A stretch of DNA of 32,071 bases from Sabulicella rubraurantiaca (GTDB taxonomy: Bacteria; Pseudomonadota; Alphaproteobacteria; Acetobacterales; Acetobacteraceae): the NCBI RefSeq assembly GCF_017355885.1, contig NZ_JAFEUU010000028.1, positions 1-32,071 of the forward strand. Direction: 5' to 3'. This document shows positions 7,181 through 31,680 of this stretch, in pieces (position 1 is the first letter of the stretch; every line of letters starts with the position of its first letter). The notes under the pieces are model-generated. The model was not told where the DNA came from. It made no database searches and saw only the letters and a list, made by a program, of their open reading frames with translations. The position numbers and the translations under genes are program-made.

Positions 7181-7260
7181 CCTCAGGGGCCGAACAAGCG
7201 GAGTTCTCCCAGCGGGCTGGCGCTGGAGGCTTTGCAAGTATCTGTGGATGCGGTGGGGAT
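7181..7260 (+). repeat. Degraded recombinase-tail / terminator / tRNA-end scar (copy 1)
   Basis: This stretch aligns with 14290-14365 and 31540-31615: GAACAAGCG (7192-7200), then a hairpin region, then TTTGCAAGTATCTGTGGATG, matching TTTGCAAGTGTCTGTGGATG at 31590-31609. Translation still gives SSGAEQA against SAGAEQA in the longer copy. The hairpin is present in altered form (7206-7213 with 7222-7228, one bulge), although its bases differ from the other copies. It is the most diverged of three same-orientation copies. Confidence 0.55.
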
Positions 7261-7288
7261 GCTCGGGCACGAAGCCACAGACACTTGC
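7234..7288. repeat. Inverted pair of the GCAAGTGTCTGTGG site
   Basis: GCAAGTATCTGTGG at 7234-7247 is mirrored by CCACAGACACTTGC at 7275-7288 (13 of 14 bases pair), with 27 bases between. The mirrored half is exactly the sequence found beside the 3' end of tRNA-fMet at 31593-31606. It may be two attachment half-sites in opposite orientation, or simply a hairpin. Confidence 0.55.
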
Positions 7289-7522
7289 TTTTCCGGGTTC
7301 AGGCTTGATGTGGCATCTTGGATTGTCCTCATTTCGATTGGCCCTTGGCGCAACCGTATTGCTATTGCCGAAGTGCCCAACGGTGCAGGGACGAACTGGC
7401 TTGAGAAAGTGACCGATAGCGAATACGGCGACCCTGTCTCGGGGTCGCAAGCGCCCCCTCACCCGCACGGCTGCAATCTTGGCGCAGCAGTGGCGGACCC
7501 GGAACCTTGATATGGAGCCACG
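7289..7522. other. Intergenic region before carbonic anhydrase
   Basis: No gene recognised. A small hairpin (GCGACCC 7428-7434 with GGGTCGC 7442-7448) sits about 75 bases before the carbonic anhydrase start and could end transcription from upstream or form part of its leader. Confidence 0.3.
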
Positions 7523-8134
7523 ATGAAGCGCCTGCTTGCCGGCTATCGGAAGTTTCGGACCGAAATCTGGGCCAGCGAGCGGGATCGGTACGAAGCGCTG
7601 TCTCGGGAAGGCCAGCAACCCGAGACGATGGTCATTGCCTGTTCCGATTCCCGCGTTGATCCTGCAACTGTGTTCGGCGCAGGCCCCGGTGAGCTGTTCA
7701 CCGTCCGCAACATTGCCGGTCTGGTACCGCCCTTCTCGCCCGATGGCGGCTTGCATGGAACCAGCGCGGCGCTCGAGTACGGTGTGCGGGTCCTGAAGGT
7801 GGCGCGCATCGTCGTGCTCGGTCATGCGCAGTGCGGAGGCGTGCGTGCTATGGTGCAAGGTGCCCCGCGCGACGCACAGGACTTCGTGGCGCCATGGATG
7901 GCCCTCGCCACACCGGTGCTCACTTGCGCGCCAGCAGAACTGACCGGCGACGACTTGCTACACCATTGCGAGATCGGTGTGGTGCGATTGTCGCTGGCTA
8001 ATCTTATGACCTTTCCTTGGATCGCCTCGGCCGTGGCGGAAGGCAAGCTGGCGCTGCTTGGCTTTCAGTTCTCGATCTATACGGGGATGCTTACCCAAAT
8101 TGATGGTGACGACGCAGCCAACGAGATCCTCTGA
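7523..8134 (+). CDS. Beta-class carbonic anhydrase
   Basis: A 203-residue protein, normal size for the family. It interconverts CO2 and bicarbonate in the cytoplasm. The zinc and active-site residues are present: CSDSR at 40-44 (Cys40, Asp42, Arg44) and HAQC at 101-104 (His101, Cys104); FTVRNIAG at 59-66 and EYGVRVL are also family motifs. The ATG at 7523 follows GGAG at 7513-7516. It stands alone between a recombinase scar and an unrelated gene fragment, so its original operon context is lost. Likely supplies bicarbonate for carboxylation or pH balance. Confidence 0.93.
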   Translation: MKRLLAGYRKFRTEIWASERDRYEALSREGQQPETMVIACSDSRVDPATVFGAGPGELFTVRNIAGLVPPFSPDGGLHGTSAALEYGVRVLKVARIVVLGHAQCGGVRAMVQGAPRDAQDFVAPWMALATPVLTCAPAELTGDDLLHHCEIGVVRLSLANLMTFPWIASAVAEGKLALLGFQFSIYTGMLTQIDGDDAANEIL

Positions 8135-8211
8135 TGCTCGCCCATGGACGACCTCCACGGCGACAACCTCGAGGAATTCCGGGCACCGCTCGCCGTCGCT
8201 GCGCATTAGGC

Positions 8212-29544: not shown

Positions 29545-29599
29545 CCGGCGTGGCCGGGGCGACGAAGCCCCGACGCACGCCCATTACTGGAGTTCGGCC

Positions 29600-30823
29600 A
29601 TGCCCGCCCACACCGCGCTCGCCCTCGGAGCCGCGCGCGCACGCCCCGCCGCGCTGCGCAACGCACTCGTCGCGGCGATGGCGTTCCTCACCCTCGTGGA
29701 CCTCTTCGCCACCCAAGCGATTCTGCCCGCGCTCGCTGCGCACTACCGCGTGAGCCCCTCGGAAATGGGCACAGCGGTGAACGCGAGCACGCTCGGGATG
29801 GCGGTCGCCGGCCTTGGCATCGCGTTGTTGGGCGCGGGGTTCGACCGGCAGCGCGGAGTGGCCGGGAGTCTACTGCTGCTCGCCCTGCCTACCGCGCTCC
29901 TCGCCTCCGCGCCGGATTTGGCGAGCTTCGCGGCGCTTCGTGTGATGCAGGGGCTGCTCATGGCCTCGGCCTTCGCCCTGGCGCTGGCGCATCTCGGCGA
30001 GCGCTTCGGTCCGATGGACGCGCCCGGCGTGTTCGCGGCCTACATCACGGGGAACGTCCTTAGCAACCTCGTAGGGCGGCTCGTCTCGGCGGGGTTGGCC
30101 GAGCATCTTGGGCTGATGGGGAACTTCTACGGCTTCGCGGCGCTCAACCTCGCCGGCGCCGCGCTCTCCTTTTTGGCGCTGGAGCGCAACCCGGTGCGGC
30201 GCATGGCCCCGGGGGCGGTGCGGCGGGCGGCGGAGACGGCGGAGCTCCTGCATGACGGGCGGGTGCGAGGGGCCTGCGGGATCGGATTTGGCATCCTCTT
30301 CGCCTTCATCGGGGTCTTCTCCTACGTCAACTTTGTGCTGGTGGAACCGCCCTTCGGCCTCGGCATGATGGAGCTGGGTCTGGTGTATTTTGTCTTCCTT
30401 CCTGCTGTGCTCACCACCCCGGCGGCCGGCCTCCTCGCGCGGCGCTGGGGCGCGCGGCGCACCTTGCTGGCGGGGTTGGCCCTGGCCACGATGGCTCTGC
30501 CGCTGTTGCTGGCGGGGTCGCTGCCGGCCGTGCTCGCCGGCCTGGGGCTGGTGGCGGTGGGCACCTTTGGCGCGCAGGCGGTCGTCACGGGCTATGTCGG
30601 CCGTGTTGCCCGCGGCCGAGCCGGGGCGGGCGGCCTCTACCTCGCGAGCTACTTCGCTGGTGGCCTGGCAGGAAGCGCAGTTCTCGGCTCAGCCTACGAG
30701 GCTTTGGGATGGCCGGGCTGCGTGGCCGGCGCGGGGGCAGCGCTGCTCGCTGCGGCCGCTTTTGCTTCGCGCGGGATGCGTGGTGCGGAGGCCTCGGTGG
30801 AAGGGCCACAGCGACCATCGTGA
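29600..30823 (+). CDS. MFS transporter
   Basis: A 407-residue protein with about twelve hydrophobic helices. The first helix region LVDLFATQAILPALAAHY and the cytoplasmic motif GAGFDRQRG between helices 2 and 3 fit the drug/sugar efflux branch of the major facilitator superfamily (YnfM/AraJ-like). VMQGLLMASAFALALAHLGE lies in helix 4 with a charged end, and the ALERNP loop separates the two halves. It probably exports small molecules by proton antiport; the substrate is unknown. The start ATG 29600 lies 55 bases after the sigma factor gene on the same strand, so co-regulation is plausible. Confidence 0.88.
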   Translation: MPAHTALALGAARARPAALRNALVAAMAFLTLVDLFATQAILPALAAHYRVSPSEMGTAVNASTLGMAVAGLGIALLGAGFDRQRGVAGSLLLLALPTALLASAPDLASFAALRVMQGLLMASAFALALAHLGERFGPMDAPGVFAAYITGNVLSNLVGRLVSAGLAEHLGLMGNFYGFAALNLAGAALSFLALERNPVRRMAPGAVRRAAETAELLHDGRVRGACGIGFGILFAFIGVFSYVNFVLVEPPFGLGMMELGLVYFVFLPAVLTTPAAGLLARRWGARRTLLAGLALATMALPLLLAGSLPAVLAGLGLVAVGTFGAQAVVTGYVGRVARGRAGAGGLYLASYFAGGLAGSAVLGSAYEALGWPGCVAGAGAALLAAAAFASRGMRGAEASVEGPQRPS

Positions 30824-30999
30824 GCGACGCGCTGCCCCGACACGCCTCATGCCTCGGGCCGCGAGCGTATGTGGAGGCGGCCCTTCGAACAACGAGGTTC
30901 ACGGTCGCGCTGCGACAGTCCGCATAACATGCGGTCGTTCAACCACCCTGTGCCGAGAAGCGTAACAGAGGCTGATTCGGCTGCGCAGGGCGCGTCGCC
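30824..30999. other. Spacer before the recombinase remnant
   Basis: 176 bases with no gene recognised. The last part may already belong to the decayed recombinase (zinc-ribbon region), but no clear motif can be read before 31006. Confidence 0.3.
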
Positions 31000-31647
31000 A
31001 GAATCTGCTCGAACAGCAAGACCGTAGCGCAGGACGTGTTCGAGGGGCGCGTCCTCGCGGGCCTCAAGGAACGGCTGCTCAGCCCCGAGGTGATCGCCGC
31101 GGCGGTGGAGGAGGCCCGTCTGGCCTCGGTCACACAGCGACGCGAGGCCATGACCAAGGAAAGCCGGCTGCGCCGGCGTCTGGGCGAGGTGACCTGGGCC
31201 TGGGTTGCTGCGTCGACGCGATCACCGAGGGCATGCCGGCCCGGCAACTGCGAGACCGCATGCAGAGCTTGGAGGATGGCCGGACCGCCATCGAGGCGCA
31301 GTTGTCGGACCTCGCGAAGTCCCAGACCGACATCCCTGCCCCACCCGGCGCTGGCCGAGGCCTATCGCCGGAAGGTCGAGGAGCTGGAACAGGTACTCGG
31401 CGACGACAGCCCGGAGGCCCGCGAGGCGCTGCAGGTGGTACGCAGCCTCATCCGCAAGATCAAAATCCTCCCCTATCCCGAGGCGCCCAACGGCGTCTGG
31501 CTGGAGATCGAGGGTGACTTGGCGGTGCTGCTGCGCGCCTCGGCGGGCGCTGAACAAGCGAAAACCCCCAAAGCGGTGGCCTTGGGGGTTTTGCAAGTGT
31601 CTGTGGATGCGGGGACAGGATTTGAACCTGTGACCTTCAGGTTATGA
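31000..31647 (+). pseudogene. Serine recombinase C-terminal remnant next to tRNA-fMet (scar copy 3)
   Basis: From about 31000 the frame reads ICSNSKTVAQDVFEGRVLAG then LKERLLSPEVIAAAVEEAR, the end of the zinc ribbon and start of the long coiled coil of large serine recombinases. Near 31195 the frame shifts: the continuation MPARQLRDRMQSLEDGR and AIEAQLSDLAKSQTDI lies in the frame of 31233. Near 31340 it returns to the first frame with ALAEAYRRKVEELEQVLGDD, ending VSVDAGTGFEPVTFRL. The catalytic resolvase domain is absent. The reading frame passes through the rrn terminator and into the complement of tRNA-fMet, so the last 20 residues are encoded by the tRNA's antisense strand. Confidence 0.8.
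31561..31592 (-). terminator. Terminator of the rRNA-tRNA operon
   Basis: AAAACCCCCAA (31561-31571) pairs with TTGGGGGTTTT (31582-31592): 11-bp stem, 10-base loop, ending TTTT on the minus strand, 12 bases downstream of the tRNA 3' end. It is symmetrical and would also act on the plus strand. The identical hairpin is found at 14311-14342. Confidence 0.85.
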
Positions 31648-31680
31648 GCCTGACGAGCTACCGGGCTGCTCCACCCCGCG
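31604..31680 (-). tRNA. Initiator tRNA-fMet (CAU)
   Basis: A 77-base cloverleaf including an encoded CCA (complement of 31604-31606). It has the C1xA72 mismatch at the end of the acceptor stem that marks initiator tRNAs, D-stem GAGC/GCTC, anticodon loop CTCATAA, variable loop AGGTC and T-arm ACAGG-TTCAAAT-CCTGT. Two odd features: position 73 is U where A is usual, and the anticodon stem has A29:U41 in place of the first of the three G:C pairs. It lies directly after 5S rRNA, the usual alphaproteobacterial place. Confidence 0.95.

Follow-up and report, generated by a model that had tools for sequence, protein, structure and literature searches.

The 32,071-bp window analysed here, from the acetobacteraceous bacterium Sabulicella rubraurantiaca, is an entire contig (NZ_JAFEUU010000028.1; C20 of a 64-contig genome), and its right edge is therefore an assembly break within a ribosomal RNA (rRNA) operon. 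Close to that edge lies a minus-strand tRNA-Met(CAT) gene, which we take to be tRNA-fMet from its gene position and its C1-A72 mismatch. Facing it on the plus strand are three copies, near 31, 14 and 7.2 kb, of a segment resembling the 3' end of a serine recombinase gene, and these copies, as candidate scars of elements integrated at tRNA-fMet, are the subject of this report. The tRNA end and the scars comprise the following features (att, attachment site; positions are those of the window).

31604-31680, minus strand: tRNA-fMet gene, the putative integration target (ARAGORN tRNA-Met(cat); Rfam tRNA at 31607-31680)
31712-31826, minus strand: 5S rRNA (Rfam)
31941-32071, minus strand: 3' end of 23S rRNA, truncated by the contig end (Rfam)
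30967-31647, plus strand: decayed serine recombinase gene, Zn ribbon to C-terminus (profile match, end of the open reading frame)
31561-31592, minus strand: predicted hairpin terminator behind the tRNA, within the recombinase 3' end (sequence; z -4.1 for the stretch, L005)
31592-31624, plus strand: attL-type junction, putative element left arm plus tRNA 3' end (comparison with other tRNA-side junctions)
14107-14354, plus strand: C-terminal relic of the inner element's serine recombinase gene (DNA and protein similarity, profile)
14311-14342, minus strand: predicted terminator hairpin, putatively once behind the tRNA and now inside the array (identical to 31561-31592)
14355-14384, plus strand: candidate integration junction, joining the buried recombinase end to the outer element's right arm (profile, 13.6 bits)
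7186-7256, plus strand: putatively the oldest of the window's scars, with DNA resembling the terminator and left att arm of the recombinase gene end (76% to 31546-31612)
7257-7292, plus strand: candidate integration junction, core GGATGCTCGGGCACGAAGCC (7257-7276) and right arm CACAGACACTTGC (profile, 17.9 bits)

When the window was compared with itself, 31357-31622 aligned with 14107-14372 at 87.2% identity over 266 ungapped bp (E 5e-92), close to the 85% or so that a first-pass annotation of the sequence had estimated for 31365-31620 and 14107-14371. The more diverged plus-strand copy that it had placed at 7181-7260 was recovered at 76% over 68 bp (31546-31612 against 7186-7253, E 7e-8), and 14322-14362 matched 7211-7253 at 81% over 43 bp. 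All three copies are on the plus strand, facing the tRNA gene. The 7.2-kb scar is longer than had been described, with its junction core at 7257-7276 and an arm reaching to about 7292. The end of similarity within the T-arm, put at 14370, does not mark the exact crossover: judged by junctions in other genomes, the switch falls near 14364-14365, and the 8 final bases of similarity, up to 14372, are probably in part a product of chance. Reading the final similar bases at 14372 as T-arm sequence was dropped after this comparison, although the right arm there is itself weak evidence. Separately, GGTTCGAATCC at 14419-14429 resembled a tRNA T-loop; a search of the genome with 14373-14520 gave no strong match elsewhere and one weak one (E 0.65).

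The three scars previously counted are all present in the window, but the genome holds at least five such sites, two of them on contig C6. One is a further copy at C6:19059-19316 with a recombinase C-terminal relic; the other is a junction at about C6:5965 that follows another such relic (profile positions 442-532, E 1.4e-14). Adjoining this second junction, on the opposite strand near 5965-6865 (L139), is a second serine recombinase in fragments (profile positions 160-246). The first 1000 bases of the window gave no meaningful overlap match to the first 1500 bases of C6 or the last 1500 of contig C27.

Against a 559-position profile of relatives, the fragment at 30967-31644 covers positions 334-559 (E 1.3e-36), the catalytic N-terminal part being gone. 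Its frame is open from 30976 and terminates 44 bases into the tRNA complement, yet in its middle, profile positions 416-455 are matched in the next frame (E 6e-4). The relic at 14107-14354 covers positions 462-532 (E 3.8e-13) and is 86% identical as protein and 87% as DNA to 31357-31622. The earlier proposal that every scar stems from a serine recombinase gene that lost its catalytic part thus held for the scars at 31 and 14 kb, both of which keep C-terminal relics, while at 7.2 kb the protein is unrecognisable. Pfam gave no match to the recombinase relics in the window, so their kinship with large serine integrases rests on the relatives' profile. The end of C27 carries a recombinase that spans profile positions 3-409 (of 559) and has one stop; over 299 bp its DNA and that of the window relic are 89% identical.

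The peptide encoded by 31363-31620, which includes little of the tRNA, served to search 200 family genomes for intact relatives; a DNA search that included the tRNA mostly returned tRNA-fMet genes, and the protein search was used instead. The peptide matched in 37 of the 200 (the source genome counted), and a tRNA-Met lay within the locus in 12 of the 29 matched loci that were scanned for tRNAs (L036-L064). Nineteen loci with a recombinase beside tRNA-fMet were chosen from the matches and oriented. In all 19, as in the window, the recombinase open reading frame (ORF) enters the tRNA complement in the same frame, and in 18 it reaches a TGA stop 44 bases into the tRNA gene (in L082 the contig ends before that point). 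The last ~13 recombinase residues are therefore antisense tRNA, with tails such as ..AGTGFEPVTFRL. Fourteen of these recombinases are full length or nearly so, with mutual identities of 37 to 95%, and in their alignment the tRNA-coded tail holds most of the invariant columns of the C-terminal region. Full-length serine recombinases ending within tRNA-fMet, which the first-pass annotation had suggested seeking in relatives, were thus found.

All three full-length relatives that were scanned carry the Resolvase, Recombinase and Zn-ribbon Pfam domains within one protein of 450-700 residues, the combination by which we assigned the class of large serine integrases. In these enzymes ARYSS is the catalytic serine region; here S10 is invariant in all 14 aligned relatives, and the region is lost from the window relics. 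The nearest named models for the three proteins were CcrB and XisF, both far under cut-off. In a tree of the relatives, which serves for orientation only, the tRNA-fMet, buried and other labels are intermixed. Related large serine recombinases at other loci (3' ends in L126, L129, L113, L115, L234 and L237) end in antisense tRNA-Glu(CTC), tRNA-Arg(CCG), tRNA-Thr(CGT), an Ile2-like CAT tRNA, tRNA-Ser(TGA) or transfer-messenger RNA (tmRNA). The serine integrases of Rhizobium phage RR1-A (L265) and Microcystis phage Mae-JY30 (L273) have TGGTAGCGG-type ends that resemble a tRNA 3' end, and these may be attP forms of tRNA-directed systems.

The same 3' end appears to serve a further role. We folded the 82 bases of predicted RNA just downstream of the tRNA, taking z < -1.5 as the threshold, and 29 of 33 distinct junctions passed (mean -3.1), compared with 4 of 32 control stretches taken ~300 bases further in (mean -0.2). 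The hairpins are common to close relatives and not to distant ones. The integrase ORF's 3' end thus seems to act also as a terminator behind the tRNA, in agreement with the earlier suggestion that it contains both terminator and tRNA end.

A script that looked for junctions after the recombinase C-terminus returned 33 on the tRNA side and 25 buried ones, among which two (L121, L134) were discarded by eye as chance, leaving 23 that include the window and C6 copies. The two classes have their left half in common and differ to the right of it. Buried junctions track the tRNA end as far as GG(T/A)TGCGGGG (L108, L109, L042 and L140 differ from it by one or two changes) and then diverge. Their right arms carry CGCAACC (matches in the mirror register, 5.2 of 7; in 21 others, 0.6 to 3.4) and then a CGATACC-like block, so as to mirror the left arm (for example in L090). 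Symmetric inverted-repeat arms are the shape of the attP of large serine integrases, and the 23 buried junctions show, by this mirror symmetry, a short attP-like sequence.

Two departures from this pattern were seen. At L088 (8455), L045 (1749), L142 (4591) and L149 (12928), all on reverse strands, and at L044 (1767), a tRNA-coded integrase tail adjoins tRNA sequence that continues only to the anticodon loop, which suggests displacement by elements that cross over at the anticodon loop, perhaps of the tyrosine type. In L089 (9513-9579) and L205 (2169-2235), two junctions stand 66 bp apart within one recombinase ORF with the frame kept, as if an element had been reduced to its two att arms and the protein had gained 22 residues.

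We scored the window with a 30-column profile made from 17 distinct buried junctions, the source genome left out. Over both strands, 7257 ranked first (17.9 bits) and 14355 second (13.6 bits), with the next site at 9.0 bits; both lie on the plus strand, as expected. Six of 300 shuffled windows reached 17.85 bits somewhere. By the right arm alone 7257 ranked 4th of 64084 positions, and its arm CACAGACACTTGC is the mirror image of the tRNA-side arm GCAAGTGTCTGTG, which makes this a strong candidate junction although its recombinase relic is gone. The right arm at 14355 matched its best partners at 19 of 36 positions (shuffle P 0.003), a value equalled at 364 of 32035 window positions; this junction is supported mainly by its position directly after a recombinase end. 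A simple search of the fetched stretches with the att core had yielded only weak candidates outside the window, and the trained profile did better.

Three other genomes show how such elements look when less decayed. G134 has a single 15.8-kb element with both ends. At 991 the profile scores 18.0 bits with a hairpin (z -4.4), TGGCTGCGGGG and the right arm, and the preceding 1000 bases gave no recombinase match; the other end, at 16748, is the integrase with the tRNA. The tRNA is kept whole by an island-borne 3' end, with the displaced fragment at the opposite end, an arrangement also found at the window scars, if less securely at 14355. In G062, near-identical recombinase ends occur three times, with the right arm at 2765123 and 1510214 and with the tRNA at 2791601, forming an array of several copies that ends at one tRNA. 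G175, of the same genus as the window, has a tRNA-fMet with an integrase on its contig C10, while the tRNA-fMet on its C1 has no recombinase match in 2.4 kb. The cargo of these three relatives includes defence-system-like genes in two and glycosyltransferases in one. The G134 element encodes a MobA/VirD2-like relaxase with DUF3363, RAMP proteins like Csm3, Cas7 and Cas5 of type III CRISPR, and a CARF protein; the G062 element has glycosyltransferases together with an IS21-type pair; and the G175 integrase adjoins a Hachiman HamB-like helicase, whose neighbouring ORF gave no HamA match.

The arrangement extends beyond the family, and many alphaproteobacterial genera have serine integrases at tRNA-fMet behind the rRNA operon. 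The full profile matched (E up to 1e-30) in 25 of 240 genomes of the class, the source genome counted. Forty tRNA-fMet flanks with enough contig were also picked from the matches of the DNA search, mostly excluding loci already used, so that they do not give an unbiased rate; with L209 dropped (its tRNA lay outside the pattern), 39 were usable. Another flank, L212, was only 379 bases long. Six of the 39 had a recombinase match, in the tail frame in all six. A search whose patterns included the tail, and hence favoured it, supplied 50 named loci. In 12 of these, including loci of Gluconacetobacter asukensis, Devosia riboflavina, Martelella mediterranea, Azospirillum brasilense, Sphingomonas glacialis and Rhizobium sp. 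SL86, the ORF ends within a complete tRNA-Met; the remaining 38 comprise contig ends, buried or other ends, and more than 20 distant Firmicutes relatives without tRNA-Met there. Plasmid or chromid records matched in 61 cases, and six of the eight regions taken from these have tRNA-Met beside the recombinase, with the ORF ending in the tail in five and broken earlier in L272. On plasmids of Komagataeibacter saccharivorans (L267) and Bradyrhizobium (L269), vapBC-type genes adjoin the recombinases; the one in L267 is annotated as tRNA(fMet)-specific endonuclease VapC.

Taken together, these observations make it very probable, as far as sequence comparison can show, that the scars are the junctions of integrative elements inserted serially at the tRNA-fMet 3' end by their own large serine integrases, and the window most likely holds a decayed island array made by a widespread group of such enzymes. 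In the relatives, the sequences show an integrase gene at the edge of the element; its 3' end holds the terminator and the last ~11 tRNA bases and so would be protein code, att site and terminator at once. The adjacent integrase would catalyse integration through a symmetric attP of approximately GGTATCGGTGGTTGCG-GGG(A/G)CN-CGCAACC(A/G)CCGATACC, crossing over within GCGGGG(A/G). In integrated elements of the relatives, the element's terminator and tRNA end take the place of those of the host, which leaves the tRNA whole and the integrase ORF in frame with antisense tRNA. Later elements would insert at the same point, in an order that we infer; an integrase separated from the tRNA by a further element has its end buried and carries a different tail, a swap that might in turn affect the integrase. 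Successive insertion beside tRNA-fMet of elements that each brought a serine recombinase had been proposed in the first pass, and it gains support from the relatives' loci, the terminators, the G062 array and the profile ranks of 7257 and 14355.

Between the scars lie two stretches of cargo, for which no strand is assigned.

7293-14106: inner-element cargo, with carbonic anhydrase, NMT1-type ABC transporter and amidase genes and one ORF without a Pfam match (Pfam)
14385-30960: outer-element cargo, with OpgC-like, AhpC/TSA, LysR, cupin, NDH-2-like, cyclase, patatin, SDR and MFS genes (Pfam)

Since every integrase copy in the window has decayed, 7257-14354 and 14365-31604 are probably stranded islands with metabolic genes. 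By eye, ORF 15356-15865 in the outer cargo looks like a piece of an IS5-type transposase. Also by eye, a 1614-residue ORF at window 492-5336 has cadherin- or VCBS-like repeats, and ORF 13278-14015, which lacks a Pfam match, looks like the end of a cadherin/VCBS-type protein.

Several observations count against serial integration by serine integrases. No relative came to light that lacks these two islands at the corresponding locus. None of the 20 window ORFs scanned by Pfam is a transfer, phage or relaxase gene, and the mobility of the stretches is therefore deduced from their ends. Upstream of the 7.2-kb scar (6301-7262, six frames) no recombinase profile match appeared at E up to 1, so that this scar is tied to a recombinase gene through DNA similarity. 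As for 14355, 47 of 300 shuffled windows hold a site of at least 13.6 bits, and its right arm alone ranks 911th of 64084 positions, which is not distinctive. Among the other loci scanned (sites of at least 13 bits), L100:14343 within G062 scores 19.5 bits in an unexpected, unexplained orientation, and may be a chance site. Finally, in 5 of the 33 tRNA-side junctions the tRNA sequence continues no further than the anticodon loop, which indicates that other elements, perhaps of tyrosine type, also use tRNA-fMet.

The flanks of rRNA operons often recombine, and the copies are collinear and in one orientation, as homologous recombination or segmental duplication at the operon end could produce them, with the recombinase relic as a passenger of the repeat and no site-specific integration. 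That origin is nonetheless very improbable, given that the copies in other genomes stop at one point and pass into a right arm of one type, and that intact integrases occupy the same place in many genera. We find it equally hard to credit that tyrosine integrases made the insertions and that the serine recombinase lies at the edge as cargo by chance. PMC4383910 names tyrosine integrases as the usual users of tRNA genes, and the switch at the anticodon loop would suit them; against this, the serine recombinase reads into the tRNA in all 19 oriented loci, the junction is mirror-symmetric as serine integrases predict, and 9 of the 10 listed cargo ORFs of the G134 element have no tyrosine-integrase match, its edge integrase being of the serine type. 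Somewhat less remote, though still unlikely, is that ordinary chromosomal backbone makes up the DNA between the scars and that only short scars were inserted into it. The Pfam-matched cargo ORFs look metabolic or regulatory, without transfer genes, and 27047-28646 is matched at 67% by a stretch close to tRNA-fMet on G175:C1; however, among 20 other genomes of the genus (E up to 1e-80; some incomplete), the amidase is matched in one (77% identity) and unmatched in 19, and the NDH-2-like gene is matched in two (53-54% identity) and unmatched in 18.

As a conserved natural landing site, tRNA-fMet could allow these serine integrases to serve as tools in laboratory strains. A broader proposal, which we regard as speculative and rather doubtful, is that large serine integrases directed at tRNA and tmRNA genes form a widespread, overlooked class in which insertion rewrites the integrase C-terminus and read-through from the rRNA operon may keep the integrase silent while the element is integrated and release it in the circular form; if so, the integrase gene would stand head-on to its target RNA gene.

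CcrB of SCCmec targets rlmH, a protein gene, in contrast with tRNA-fMet here. Its model (NCBIfam NF047343) was the best named protein relative of the three full-length proteins (E 2e-18 to 1e-34), which score 66 to 120 bits where the cut-off is 900. In a literature search that did not cover supplements, no description of a tRNA-fMet serine integrase group was found in the text accessible, nor did the available parts of PMC12424338, PMC12884075, PMC12924846, PMC11476347 and PMC10654092 contain a serine integrase at tRNA-fMet. The first-pass annotation had called serine recombinases that end in a tRNA unusual and perhaps an uncharacterised family. Their rarity agrees with PMC3218068, which describes use of tRNA genes by serine recombinases as rare, but both that paper and PMC3146451 supply precedents; "uncharacterised family" thus applies only to the tRNA-fMet group, within the literature searched.

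PMC3218068 names phiRSM1 (tRNA-Ser) and mycobacterial actinomycete integrative and conjugative elements (AICEs; tRNA-Leu). In phiRSM1 of Ralstonia, cited there, a serine recombinase acts at a tRNA 3' end, as here; it is a filamentous phage, and its tRNA is other than fMet. The Mycobacterium AICEs likewise pair a serine recombinase with a tRNA gene, again a different one, and are actinobacterial conjugative elements. Both are likened to the present system by description only. A close parallel is found in Dehalococcoides, where serine-integrase islands stand in tandem at ssrA (PMC3146451). Their target is tmRNA, with insertion in the T-loop, in contrast with the tRNA-fMet of an rRNA operon here, and a small second recombinase, DsiA, is proposed there as a partner. 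In both systems a large serine recombinase (DsiB, called a CcrB homologue) lies at one edge, a structured RNA gene is entered at its 3' end, and tandem islands are split by short repeats of the RNA-gene end; in one relative the repeat is described as lying within dsiB (PMC3146451), like the repeat in the integrase gene here. Likened by description and not by sequence, the tRNA-fMet array appears to work as the Dehalococcoides ssrA islands do.

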